The notes beneath the pieces are model-generated. The model ran no database searches. It had not been told where the DNA came from and was given only the letters and a program-made list of their open reading frames with translations. A stretch of DNA of 64,000 nt from Neisseria zoodegmatis. GTDB taxonomy: Bacteria; Pseudomonadota; Gammaproteobacteria; Burkholderiales; Neisseriaceae. This document shows, piece after piece, positions 45,233 to 50,121 of this stretch (position 1 is its first letter; every line of letters begins with the position of its first letter). Made by a program: the position numbers and the translations under genes. The stretch is from positions 1,240,001 to 1,304,000 of the forward strand of contig NZ_LT906434.1 of the NCBI RefSeq assembly GCF_900187305.1. Direction: 5' to 3'.

Positions 45233-45260
45233 TTGTCAAGACTGGTGTGCCTTTTAGAAT
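45233..45260 (+). promoter_or_regulatory. Predicted nrdA promoter
   Basis: TTGTCA (45233-45238) and TAGAAT (45255-45260) with a 16-bp spacer. The start point would be near 45267, inside the first NrdR-like box. Confidence 0.6.
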
Positions 45261-45261
45261 T

Positions 45262-45307
45262 ACAGTATATTGTGTTCCGATTATCGGGGTACTACTGTAT
45301 CTTGTGT
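45262..45307 (+). promoter_or_regulatory. Tandem NrdR-like boxes upstream of nrdA
   Basis: ACAGTATATTGTGT (45262-45275) and ACTGTATCTTGTGT (45294-45307) both fit the NrdR box pattern. Their starts are 32 bp apart, about three helical turns, as is usual for paired NrdR sites. The first overlaps the predicted start point. NrdR represses ribonucleotide reductase genes when (d)ATP is high. Confidence 0.75.
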
Positions 45308-45332
45308 TTTTATAAATTCCGGGATGATAGAG

Positions 45333-47612
45333 ATGAATGCAGCGAGCAACCTGAAAGTAACCAAAAGAGACGGTCGTTTGGAGCCTTTGGACCTTTATAA
45401 AATCCACCGTGTCATTACTTGGGCGGCGGAAGGTTTGGACAACGTTTCCGTTTCCCAGGTCGAGCTGAAATCGCATATCCAGTTTTATAACGGCATCCGT
45501 ACCGACGATATCCATGAAACCATCATTAAAGCGGCGGCCGATTTAATTTCACAAGATACGCCCGATTACCAATATCTCGCCGCACGCTTGGCGATTTTCC
45601 ATTTACGCAAAATTGCATACGGCGAATTCGAGCCGCCGCACCTGTTCGACCACGTTGCCAAGCTCACCGAAGCGGGCAAATACGACCGCCATGTCCTTGC
45701 CGATTACAGCCGTGAAGAGTTTGAAGAGCTGAACGATTATCTCGACCACGAGCGCGATATGACTTTCTCTTACGGCGCGGTCAAGCAGCTTGAAGGCAAA
45801 TATCTGGTGCAAAACCGCGTTACCCGCCAAATCTACGAAACGCCGCAGTTTCTGTATATTTTGGTGGCCATGTGCCTGTTCGCCAAATATCCGAAAGCCA
45901 CCCGTTTGGATTATGTGAAACGCTTTTACGATGCCGTTTCCACTTTCAAAATTTCCCTGCCTACGCCGATTATGTCGGGCGTGCGCACGCCGACGCGCCA
46001 ATTTTCAAGCTGCGTGTTGATCGAGTGCGACGACAGCCTCGACAGCATCAACGCCACCACCAGCGCGATTGTGAAATACGTTTCCCAACGTGCCGGTATC
46101 GGCATCAACGCAGGCCGTATCCGCGGCTTGGGTAGCGAAATCCGCGGCGGCGAAGCGCAACACACCGGCTGTATTCCGTTTTTCAAAATGTTTCAAGCCG
46201 CGGTTAAGTCTTGTTCGCAAGGCGGTGTGCGCGGCGGTGCGGCCACTCTGTTTTACCCGCTGTGGCACATCGAAGTGGAAAGCCTGCTGGTGCTGAAAAA
46301 CAACCGCGGCGTAGAAGACAACCGCGTGCGCCATCTCGACTACGGCGTGCAAATCAACCGCCTGCTTTATACCCGCCTGATTAAAGGCGGCAACATTACC
46401 TTGTTCTCGCCCAACGAAGTACCCGGCTTGTACGAAGCGTTTTTTGCCGATCAAGACCAGTTCGAGCGTTTGTATACGCAATACGAACAGGATCCGAATA
46501 TCCGCAAACGTTCGCTGCCTGCAACCGAACTGTTTTCATTGATGATGCAGGAGCGCGCCGGTACCGGCCGCATCTACATTCAAAACGTCGATCATTGCAA
46601 CACGCACAGCCCGTTTGATCCCAAAGTTGCGCCCGTGCGCCAATCCAACCTGTGCTTGGAAATTGCCTTGCCGACCAAGCCGTTAAACGACATTAACGAT
46701 GAAAACGGCGAAATCGCTTTGTGTACTCTGTCGGCATTCAACTTGGGTGCGTTGGAAAGTTTGGATGAACTCGAAGGCTTGGCCGATCTTGCCGTCCGCG
46801 CACTCGATGCCTTGTTGGATTATCAGGATTACCCCGTTAAAGCGGCCAAAGTCGCCACCATGAACCGCCGCACCCTCGGTATCGGCGTGATTAACTACGC
46901 CTACTATTTGGCCAAAAACGGTGTGAAATACAGCGACGATTCCGCTATCCCTTTAACCCACCGCACCTTTGAAGCCATTCAATACTACTTGCTCAAAGCC
47001 TCGGTGGAACTTGCCAAAGAATTCGGTGCCTGCCCGCTGTTCAACGAAACCACTTACGCGCAAGGCAAGTTGCCGATTGATACCTACAAAAAAGATTTGG
47101 ATGCCATCTGCCAAGAGCCGCTGCATCTCGATTGGGAAAGCCTGCGTGCCGATATTGTGAAGCACGGCCTGCGCAATTCAACCTTAACCGCCTTGATGCC
47201 GTCTGAAACCAGTTCGCAGATTGCCAACGCCACCAATGGCATCGAACCGCCGCGCGGTTTGGTGTCTGTGAAAGCCTCGAAAGACGGTATTTTGAAACAG
47301 GTGGTGCCTGAATTCGGCCGTCTGAAAAACCAATACGAACTGCTGTGGCAAATGCCTTCCAACGACGGTTATTTGAAACTTGTCGGCATTATGCAGAAGT
47401 TTGTCGACCAAGCCATTTCCGCCAACACCAGCTACGACCCGCAACGCTTCGAAGGCGGCCGCGTACCGATGAAGCAACTGTTGAAAGATTTGCTCACCGC
47501 CTACAAATTCGGCTTGAAAACCCTGTATTACCATAACACCCGCGATGGTGCGGACGATACGCAGACTGATTTGCAGGACGACGGCTGCGCGGGTGGGGCT
47601 TGTAAGATTTAA
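45333..47612 (+). CDS. nrdA: Ribonucleoside-diphosphate reductase subunit alpha (class Ia)
   Basis: A 759-aa catalytic subunit that reduces ribonucleotides to deoxyribonucleotides. An N-terminal ATP-cone (VTKRDGRLEPLDLYKIHRVI) senses ATP/dATP. Catalytic parts include NLCLEIALPT and the conserved PSETSSQIANATNGIEPPRG, and the C-terminal redox pair is in DGCAGGACKI. The start at 45333 gives MNAASNLKVTKRDG, as in neisserial NrdA; other in-frame ATGs lie at 45270 and 45324. An AT-type DUS is read as MPSE (47196-47207) at the catalytic motif. Confidence 0.97.
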   Translation: MNAASNLKVTKRDGRLEPLDLYKIHRVITWAAEGLDNVSVSQVELKSHIQFYNGIRTDDIHETIIKAAADLISQDTPDYQYLAARLAIFHLRKIAYGEFEPPHLFDHVAKLTEAGKYDRHVLADYSREEFEELNDYLDHERDMTFSYGAVKQLEGKYLVQNRVTRQIYETPQFLYILVAMCLFAKYPKATRLDYVKRFYDAVSTFKISLPTPIMSGVRTPTRQFSSCVLIECDDSLDSINATTSAIVKYVSQRAGIGINAGRIRGLGSEIRGGEAQHTGCIPFFKMFQAAVKSCSQGGVRGGAATLFYPLWHIEVESLLVLKNNRGVEDNRVRHLDYGVQINRLLYTRLIKGGNITLFSPNEVPGLYEAFFADQDQFERLYTQYEQDPNIRKRSLPATELFSLMMQERAGTGRIYIQNVDHCNTHSPFDPKVAPVRQSNLCLEIALPTKPLNDINDENGEIALCTLSAFNLGALESLDELEGLADLAVRALDALLDYQDYPVKAAKVATMNRRTLGIGVINYAYYLAKNGVKYSDDSAIPLTHRTFEAIQYYLLKASVELAKEFGACPLFNETTYAQGKLPIDTYKKDLDAICQEPLHLDWESLRADIVKHGLRNSTLTALMPSETSSQIANATNGIEPPRGLVSVKASKDGILKQVVPEFGRLKNQYELLWQMPSNDGYLKLVGIMQKFVDQAISANTSYDPQRFEGGRVPMKQLLKDLLTAYKFGLKTLYYHNTRDGADDTQTDLQDDGCAGGACKI

Positions 47613-47664
47613 GGGGTTTCTTTGTAGATTTAGATATCAAAACTTTTAGGATAAGGGAGTTTAA

Positions 47665-48531
47665 GTGATTGAGAATATATCTACAATTGCTACTTCAGTC
47701 ATAACGGCAGGAGCAACAACTTTGATGACAAAGGGAGCGGATGCTCCTGCTCACACATTAAATCTGATATGGAAACAAGTTTTTGGTTCTATGGATTTAT
47801 GGTTGGAAAAGCAGCAGTTAAAAAGAACAAAAGAGTTGGAGGATTTTGGTAATAGACTGAATGAGAAATTAAAAGAAATTCCGAAAGAGGAGATTCAAGA
47901 ACCTACATTTAGTGTCTTGGGTCCTGCGATAGAGGCTTCTCAATATTATTTAGAGGAAGAAGAGCTTAGAGAGATATTTGCAAAATTGGTATCAGCTTCT
48001 TTTGATGCAAGACAAAATGGTAAGTTGCATAATAGTTTTGTAGATAAAATTAAATCATTATCCTCTCATGATGCCAAACTACTTCAAAACTTAAAAGAAT
48101 CAATAGAATTGGCTCTGGGTGAATATTATATTGAAGACAATAATAATGCTGGAGAATTTACACTTAGTCCCATAGTTTGTTTAGCTATGGGAGAAGAAAA
48201 TATAGAGAAAACATCTGTATCAATAGATAACTTAGTACATTTAGGACTGATCCAAGTTGATATGGATAGGCATTTCACAGATGAAGCGAGATATAGAGAG
48301 TTTTATTCGATAAATTTATTCGATCACTTAAATCATAATAATCATATTTTATCTAGAAAATTGAAAATAGAAGAACTATTAAAATCATATTCTAAGGAAA
48401 GAATTGCTTCAGCTAACCATTGTTCTGTTTCTGATATTGAAAATTGGTTGCAAGATAGAACAGTCAGTTTACGAAAAGGTATTTGTAAATTAACTTCTTT
48501 AGGCAAAGTATTTGTTGAAATATGTTGCTGA
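47665..48531 (+). CDS. Abi-alpha family protein (DUF4393), putative phage-defence gene
   Basis: A 288-aa protein whose central part matches the DUF4393 / abortive-infection alpha pattern: a charged helical stretch (KRTKELEDFGNRLNEKLK), a Pro-containing turn, then PAIEASQYYLEEEELREIFAKLV and HNSFVDKIKSLSSHDAKLLQ. The N-terminus (about 1-25) is weakly hydrophobic. GTG start at 47665 with AGGGAG 6-7 nt upstream. The gene is visibly AT-rich (about one third G+C by eye) and has no DUS, unlike all its neighbours, which suggests recent acquisition. It lies 52 bp after nrdA and about 40-65 bp before nrdB on the same strand. The mechanism of this family is unknown to me. Confidence 0.8.
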   Translation: MIENISTIATSVITAGATTLMTKGADAPAHTLNLIWKQVFGSMDLWLEKQQLKRTKELEDFGNRLNEKLKEIPKEEIQEPTFSVLGPAIEASQYYLEEEELREIFAKLVSASFDARQNGKLHNSFVDKIKSLSSHDAKLLQNLKESIELALGEYYIEDNNNAGEFTLSPIVCLAMGEENIEKTSVSIDNLVHLGLIQVDMDRHFTDEARYREFYSINLFDHLNHNNHILSRKLKIEELLKSYSKERIASANHCSVSDIENWLQDRTVSLRKGICKLTSLGKVFVEICC

Positions 48532-48595
48532 TAATAAATTAATAGATGATTTTATTTTTTAAAGAAAATTAACCATGTCCTGCGAACACCTAGTC

Positions 48596-49729
48596 ATGTC
48601 ATACAGCACATTCAGCAAAGCAAAAAACGATGCTTTGCTAGAGCCGATGTTTTTCGGCCAGCCGGTGAATGTTGCCCGTTATGACCAGCAAAAATATGAA
48701 ATTTTTGAAAAACTGATTGAAAAACAACTGTCTTTCTTTTGGCGGCCGGAAGAAATCGACGTGTCGCGCGACCGTATCGATTACCAGAATCTGCCCGAGC
48801 ATGAAAAGCATATTTTCATCAGCAATCTGAAATACCAAACGCTGTTGGATTCGATTCAGGGGCGCAGTCCGAATGTGGCTTTGCTGCCGTTGGTGTCGAT
48901 TCCGGAGTTGGAAACGTGGATTGAAACGTGGTCGTTTTCGGAAACCATTCACTCGCGCAGCTATACGCACATTATCCGTAATATCGTGAACGATCCTTCG
49001 GTGGTGTTCGATGATATTGTCGATAACGAATACATTATTGCCCGCGCGGAAGATATCGCTTGCTATTATGATGATTTGATTGAATATACCCAATACTACA
49101 ATCTGTTGGGCGAGGGCGAGCACCGTGTGAACGGCAAGGTGGTTACGGTTAACAAGCGCGAGCTGAAAAAGAAACTGTATCTGTGCCTAATGTGCGTGAA
49201 TGTGCTGGAGGCGATCCGTTTTTATGTGTCATTTGCCTGCTCGTTTGCTTTTGCCGAGCGCGAATTGATGGAAGGCAATGCAAAAATCATCAAGCTGATT
49301 GCGCGTGATGAAGCCTTGCACTTAACCAGCACGCAGCATATGTTGAACCTGATGCGCAGCGGTGCGGACGACCCAGAGATGGCCGAGATTGCCGCCGAAT
49401 TGGAACAGGAATGTTTCGAGTTGTTTAAAACGGCGGCCACTCAGGAAAAAGAGTGGGCGGAATATCTGTTTAAAGACGGTTCGATGATTGGCCTGAATAA
49501 GGAAATTCTCAGCCAGTACGTTGAATATATTACCAATCTGCGTATGGCGGCGGTGGGTTTGAAGCCTGCTTTTGAAGGGGCGAGCCAAAATCCGATTCCG
49601 TGGATTAATGCGTGGCTGTCGTCTGATAATGTTCAGGTAGCGCCGCAGGAAGTGGAAATCAGCTCTTACTTAATCGGCCAGATTGATGCTGAAGTGAGCG
49701 CCGATGATTTGGGGGATTTCGAGCTTTAA
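48596..49729 (+). CDS. nrdB: Ribonucleoside-diphosphate reductase subunit beta (class Ia)
   Basis: A 377-aa di-iron tyrosyl-radical subunit. Iron ligands lie in [14 protein letters not shown], the ExxH pair in [13 protein letters not shown], and the radical Tyr region is [13 protein letters not shown]. The C-terminal [10 protein letters not shown] binds NrdA. The start at 48596 gives [12 protein letters not shown], aligned with the E. coli NrdB N-terminus; ATG 48575 would add seven residues (MSCEHLV) not expected in the family. The AT-rich insertion stops just upstream. Confidence 0.95.
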
Positions 49730-50121
49730 GGCCGTCTGAAAAGATAGTCGTTGCCTTTACCAACAGTGATTCTGACGTTTCGAATGCCTTCGTGATGGAT
49801 GTACGGGCAGATAGATAATCTGCCTTTGTGCGTAGTTGTGAATAGTGGCAGAGCGTTTTGAATCTGAATATCAGGCCGTCTGAAAGCTTCCGTTTCAAAC
49901 CGGAATTTCAGACGGCCTCAAGTATCACGGCTGTTTGAGGCCGTCTGAAAGCGAGCTGTGCGAGCTTCGCCAAAACCCGCTAGCTGGTTTCGCTAAAACG
50001 AGCTGTGCGAGTTTCGCTAAAGCGAGTTTAGCGAGCTTCGCGAAATATCCCCTAACTGGATTTCGCTAAAATGAGTGATGCAGGCGGGTAGGGAAAATGC
50101 AAACCGTCGCACACAAGTGGA
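49730..50121. other. nrdB-ferredoxin spacer rich in DUS and GCGA repeats
   Basis: About 390 bp. DUS copies lie at 49731-49741, 49874-49884, 49906-49919 and 49938-49949. A run of AGCGAG/GCGAAA motifs at 49950-50070 forms the longest GCGA cassette in the window and lacks a clear right DUS. A 79-codon open frame on the minus strand is not called. Confidence 0.6.
49938..50070. repeat. Long GCGA-motif cassette
   Basis: After a left GAGGCCGTCTGAA, alternating GCGAGCTGTGCGAGCTTCGC, TTTCGCTAAAACGAG and TTTCGCTAAAGCGAG motifs repeat with local inverted symmetry (GCGA against TCGC). It seems to be an expanded or rearranged form of the cassettes at 19830, 50482, 56092 and 56347. Confidence 0.7.

Follow-up and report, generated by a model that had tools for sequence, protein, structure and literature searches.

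A probable minimal-mobile-element-type exchange site between nrdA and nrdB of Neisseria, occupied by an Abi-alpha gene in Neisseria zoodegmatis

In a 64,000-bp stretch of the Neisseria zoodegmatis genome (contig NZ_LT906434.1, positions 1,240,001 to 1,304,000; hereafter the window, to which coordinates refer), an abi-alpha gene of the DUF4393 family is situated between nrdA and nrdB, which encode the two subunits of ribonucleotide reductase. The nrdA–nrdB gap in Neisseria is, in our assessment, quite likely an exchange site of the minimal mobile element (MME) kind, with Abi-alpha as one, antiphage, occupant. Each cassette would consist of one gene or a pair of genes, in many cases from phage-defence families; incoming DNA, most likely arriving by natural transformation, would recombine within nrdA and nrdB, the conserved genes on either side, and swap the cassette, with no integrase or repeat required. 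The Abi-alpha cassette would be read from the nrdA promoter along with nrdB, and phage-infected cells would die or lyse early, as in Enterococcus faecalis.

The operon lies on the + strand and is composed of nrdA (45324..47612, with ATG at 45324 or 45333; large subunit of the class Ia enzyme, Pfam Ribonuc_red_lgC) and nrdB (48575..49729; small subunit, Ribonuc_red_sm). The abi-alpha gene (47665..48531, +; 288 aa) starts with GTG behind a ribosome-binding site, AAGGGAG, read from the sequence, and is placed 52 bp after the nrdA stop (47612) and 43 bp before the nrdB start (48575), in the position that a sequence-only reading of the locus had described. The range proposed there, 47613..48595, extends 21 bp into nrdB; the exchangeable cassette is here the entire gap, 47613..48574 (+). 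Its foreign composition, also claimed in that reading, is pronounced: abi-alpha has a GC content of 0.319 and a GC3 of 0.218, against 0.523 and 0.641 for nrdA and 0.474 and 0.584 for nrdB, and ranks lowest in GC among the 60 window open reading frames (ORFs) of at least 200 aa. DNA uptake sequences (DUS) are indeed missing from the abi-alpha stretch: those at 47317 and 49731 bound the window's third-longest interval without one. The closest upstream are two copies (GCCGTCTGAA) within the 3′ part of nrdA (47198..47326, +), and the closest downstream lies immediately 3′ of nrdB (49731..49740, +); because the 64 kb hold 117 10-bp DUS, such flanking of the cassette is expected. Two simple scans for terminator-like sites on the + strand gave none in the nrdA–nrdB gap, again as proposed, and no integrase or other gene of note was present among the ORFs of the cassette. 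The best repeats between its ends were 6 bp (direct) and 7 bp (inverted), and a consensus scan revealed no promoter directly before abi-alpha.

To follow the locus across the genus, one genome per species was compared. Matches to nrdB were obtained in 43 of 46 Neisseria genomes, and 39 with a linked nrdA were counted; left out were three genomes without an nrdB match, one locus at a contig edge and three without nrdA within 12–13 kb upstream (loci L001 and L002 duplicate L005 and L032). The gap, counted from the nrdA stop codon inclusive, measures 65–2294 bp, and its contents are of many unrelated kinds. Abi_alpha was found in two genomes (the present one, G000, E 8e-40, and G012), BstA in one (G035, E 8.8e-117), Abi_2/AbiD in two (G034 and G010, E 5.2e-66), a CAP12/Pycsar TIR protein (PADLOC PDC-S35) in one (G009, E 3.3e-101), a cytosine methylase with an EcoRII-type endonuclease in two (G003 and G008, EcoRII E 3.6e-71), a DUF2188 protein (PADLOC PDC-S16) in two (G069 and G025, E 1.3e-36), NERD in two (G064 and G024), and NYN with OST-HTH in one (G031; weak PADLOC match, 7.8e-4). 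In each of the AbiD, EcoRII and DUF2188 pairs, the assignment comes from a scan for one genome and from sequence likeness for the other. Further gaps contain an Na+/H+ antiporter (G007), an oxidoreductase (G014), proteins of 85–258 aa without a Pfam family (six genomes) and short AT-rich inserts (nine genomes); five gaps of 244–507 bp have no evident cargo, and four measure 65–114 bp. Defence families by name thus occur in 8 of the 39 genomes (PADLOC files Abi_alpha and TIR as candidates), and two more carry a PADLOC candidate, giving a defence-type total of 10/39, or 10 of the 21 genomes with a long ORF or DUF2188. All family-matched cargo genes point in the nrd direction; in the oxidoreductase gap, the oxidoreductase is also overlapped by a 326-codon ORF of the opposite strand. 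The possibility, raised earlier, that spacers of other Neisseria hold other cargo or none was borne out, Abi_alpha being found in only 2 of the 39 gaps; the observation is confirmed and had been understated, as the slot is defence-rich, genus-wide and inside a core operon.

Cargo turnover between species was evident in direct comparisons. G000, G061, G018 and G017 have nrdB DNA that is 94–96% alike, yet blastn gave no match between any two of their gaps, and G035 and G022, with rpoBC 97.4% identical, carry BstA and an unknown protein, respectively. On an rpoBC tree of 24 species (26 genomes named, the oxidoreductase and antiporter genomes being dropped when the orientation motif failed), the gap state must have changed at least 17 times, the least possible being 13 and the most 18 for these labels; six forks are poorly supported. 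The AbiD cassettes of G034 and G010 are 99.8% identical, compared with 94.6% for nrdB and 92.7% for rpoBC, and identity in 500-bp steps runs 82, 90, 92, 97, 97, 100, 99.8, 97, 94.6, 94.4, 88 and 79%, with no alignment beyond the stepped region within the 18 kb compared. Similarly, the EcoRII cassettes of G003 and G008 are 99.8% alike, with steps of 99.6–100% on the cassette over a background mostly of 93–98%. Such peaks on the AbiD and EcoRII cassettes, falling off outside, are as homologous recombination predicts. The nrdA and nrdB flanks seem to move along too, since both are 96% identical between G000 and G018 against 88.5% for rpoBC, and the operon alone aligns within the 20 kb compared.

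An alternative origin for the cassette is a prophage or integrative element whose remnant landed in the operon. Abi-alpha relatives do occur in phages (76 of 50,697 phage records, mostly from Staphylococcus, 55, and Streptococcus, 13), all of them at less than 60% identity, and the protein matches PHROG 2232 (E 1.7e-62). The cassette, however, has neither an integrase nor end repeats beyond those given above, the cargo of other species likewise sits between intact nrdA and nrdB ends, and a scan of IMG/VR, which reaches close relatives only, confirmed no relative. Because phage genes are missing from the gap, its ends share no repeat above 7 bp and no such close viral relative was confirmed, this origin was rejected as highly improbable.

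In a survey of named genomes, nrdA was adjacent to nrdB in all of the best 80 of 586 nrdB loci, and the gap measured 291–1260 bp in the 6 titled Neisseria vs. 4–222 bp in 74/74 others (where a match started within nrdB, the value may include up to ~20 bp of that gene). Within Neisseria, control gaps were measured at 30 loci each, taken from 46 matched genomes for atp and 44 for rpoBC, and amounted to 23–29 bp for atpA–atpG, 33–39 bp for atpG–atpD and 66–576 bp for rpoB–rpoC. Of 37 genomes of other Neisseriaceae, 30 were compared, 29 having nrdB and 19 nrdA in reach; four of these 19 loci had cargo-sized gaps (733–1391 bp), 14 had gaps of 0–74 bp, and one was mis-measured (L203, where a short nrdA match produced a spurious 549 bp). 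One of the four contains a NERD-cargo-like protein (by eye), another a 195-aa protein that has hydrophobic stretches but matches no Pfam family, the third an Eco57I-methylase-like protein whose match falls below the Pfam cut-off, and the fourth a 164-aa ORF at native GC. Because these 4 of 19 gaps are cargo-sized, the slot extends in part beyond the genus. As a separate observation, a methylase-like protein is located directly before nrdB in three genomes of another Neisseriaceae genus (L220, L222 and L223); that of L220 is the Eco57I-like one below the Pfam cut-off, and the others are alike by eye.

Several points weigh against an exchange site with an antiphage Abi-alpha occupant. The two Neisseria Abi-alpha copies are 63% identical, and their gap DNA (71.7%) is less alike than nrdB (82.4%) or rpoBC (84.6%); being old relatives, they give no sign of recent transfer, so that recent mobility of this particular cassette would be presumed by us rather than observed. 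The comparison, with one genome per species, addresses exchange between species. The rpoB–rpoC control is itself partly variable, with 474 and 576 bp in 2 of 30 loci (L133–L162) vs. 66–214 bp in the other 28. Part of the cargo is not of defence type, namely the antiporter and the oxidoreductase, both at native GC, the six proteins without a Pfam family and the short inserts. Finally, co-transcription is a prediction from sequence, and the E. faecalis Abi-alpha is a distant relative, so its function may have changed.

The family assignment of the protein, proposed previously from its pattern, was verified by a Pfam search: PF14337 (Abi_alpha) matches with E 8e-40 and 137.4 bits against a curated cut-off of 29, residues 54–287 aligning to positions 2–196 of the 196-position profile. 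The PADLOC candidate family PDC-S47 matches as well (E 3.7e-40). Across 15 aligned Abi-alpha sequences, 9 of which are close relatives, 15 positions are invariant, including H122, F125, D136, D188, T277 and G280. The structure model resembles winged-helix proteins over residues 129–288, which suggests a winged-helix domain, possibly of the MarR type, in the C-terminal part behind N-terminal helices. Its top match among solved structures is 3H35; a sequence search of solved structures with the Abi-alpha alignment returned a weak PglZ match alone (E 0.019), and the single match in a viral structure library, an uncharacterised siphovirus protein (E 6.7e-13), is uninformative. The winged-helix resemblance, together with the location of the gene within the nrd operon, would also fit a host regulator of the nrd genes that binds DNA nearby and has no part in defence, an explanation to which we give very little credence. 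A transmembrane pore was considered and rejected by simple hydropathy: no transmembrane helix is evident, since the highest 19-residue mean is 1.02.

By analogy, the product is most likely an abortive-infection effector acting as in E. faecalis. In the study on EF2833, the abi-alpha gene of that species, the gene cloned alone blocked phage Idefix with adsorption unaffected, and infected cells died, lysing ~10 minutes early (PMC6356687). Like the present gene, EF2833 of E. faecalis prophage 6 is a single gene of the DUF4393 family (PF14337), with a product of 272 vs. 288 aa, and 3H35 is named for it too in that study. Unlike the present gene, it is prophage-borne and, according to the same text, has its own mapped promoter, whereas the present gene lies within an operon of the chromosome, the gap carries no phage genes, and the consensus scan gave no promoter directly before it. 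Two more Abi_alpha genes were observed at other places in Neisseriaceae (L193 and L196), beside phosphoribosyltransferase-like and uvrA-like genes.

Upstream of nrdA, a consensus scan located a promoter-like site, TTGTCA-16-TAGAAT (45233..45260, +), which is weak on its own because the scan gave 4 sites in the region vs. 7.6 expected in shuffles. It is touched by NrdR-box-like site 1 (45260..45275, +; 3 mismatches to the consensus), with no other such match in 64 kb, where 0.28 are expected and at least one was found in 24 of 100 shuffles; site 2 (45292..45307, +; 4 mismatches) follows at 32 bp. The genome also contains nrdR (TIGR00244, G000:C1:75297-75737). The earlier expectation of an NrdR-type promoter therefore finds signs in the two weak boxes beside a promoter-like site and in the nrdR gene. 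Given the operon direction and the lack of a terminator-like site, abi-alpha probably shares with nrdB a transcript that starts at the nrdA promoter, and the weak boxes, the nrdR gene and cargo pointing with the operon make co-transcription under NrdR plausible.

These same signals bear on the proposal that defence is tied to deoxynucleotide (dNTP) control, i.e., that the gene was selected into the operon since phages attacking the nucleotide pools would lift NrdR repression and thereby raise the defence protein at the time of need. The tandem boxes, the promoter-like site, nrdR, the shared direction and the lack of a terminator-like site are in its favour, as is the presence of several other defence families in the same gap. 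On the other side, the cargo includes restriction-modification and two metabolic genes, and among 10 oriented loci of other Neisseria (14 tried, up to 4 mismatches allowed) the tandem pair at 32-bp spacing occurs in 4, a single degenerate box in 5 and none in 1. Moreover, a general exchange site accounts for the position on its own, and the slot looks like such a site, since restriction-modification, TIR, AbiD, BstA, antiporter and oxidoreductase genes fill the same gap. We consider dNTP-driven selection unlikely, and the specific link to dNTP supply that the sequence-only reading placed behind the position is not supported, given the varied cargo. Equally doubtful is its broader form, in which the gap would be a plug-in slot wiring exchangeable defence genes to a dNTP sensor, so that infection drains dNTPs, NrdR releases and the cassette rises with ribonucleotide reductase. 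If true, the unknown cargo, including the 49–61 aa proteins with one hydrophobic stretch, would represent undescribed antiphage genes.

An exchange site of the MME kind has known parallels. In PMC3082526, MMEs are defined by a conserved gene pair with different whole-gene cassettes between, incorporated by homologous recombination. The nrdA–nrdB locus shares the conserved flanking genes and differing whole-gene cassettes, seen here in 39 linked gaps between species; recombination in the flanks is supported for two other cassettes by their identity peaks and may apply to the Abi-alpha cassette, which has no integrase or end repeats. It differs in its cargo, which is largely defence-type, and in having been followed over 46 genomes of the genus and into other Neisseriaceae; MMEs were defined between strains, and the present survey is between species. 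The MMEs of Neisseria were reportedly introduced by Saunders and Snyder in 2002 and treated again by Snyder et al. in 2007. With the defence islands and hotspots reported from E. coli and Pseudomonas, the locus shares one kind of chromosomal place that holds different defence genes per genome; it is distinct in that a single gene or pair, not a cluster, lies within an operon of two genes, and neither integrase nor repeat was seen. Island-like clustering was not observed: the present gap has a single cargo gene and the others no more than one restriction-modification pair, and 7 window genes were surveyed outside the gaps. Those 7, chosen mostly for low GC, were scanned with PADLOC together with nrdA and nrdB; 8 of the 9 had no match, and one, of phospholipase-D type by reading of its sequence, had a best E of 5e-13. 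MMEs and defence hotspots are already known, and the nrdA–nrdB slot is a variant of them. No description of the gap as an exchange site was found in the literature searched, and the site may be in print, as Snyder 2004 and the MME list of Snyder et al. 2007 were outside that search.

PMC2784325 lists nrdA with those genes of N. meningitidis that are almost certainly essential. In a core-operon slot, a cassette would be kept by genes that are hard to lose, could be swapped between species via the conserved flanks and could be read from a regulated promoter. The short unknown slot proteins are concrete candidates for new antiphage genes. Among the nine short AT-rich inserts, whose alignment is too divergent for a structure claim, six have an ORF of 49–61 codons (L007, L014, L034, L037, L042 and L043), two look broken and one is a likely relic by eye. 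One hydrophobic stretch (hydropathy 2.3–2.6) is encoded in each of the 5 for which hydropathy was computed, and a small toxin or exclusion protein is possible. Several short-cassette ORFs lie behind a hairpin-like AAGGCTTC...GAAGGCTT.

Other features of the gaps were noted in passing. Inverted pairs of DUS or DUS-like sequences, which the terminator scan did not flag, are present in cargo-free gaps of 65–114 bp (L012, L036 and L046) and might serve as attenuators in the nrdA–nrdB interval. The G063 gap (L033) has a terminator-like hairpin of 10 pairs with a T run, together with a 32-codon arginine-rich ORF, between the two genes. At two loci (L048 and L051), nrdB adjoins a nadE-like gene and not nrdA.
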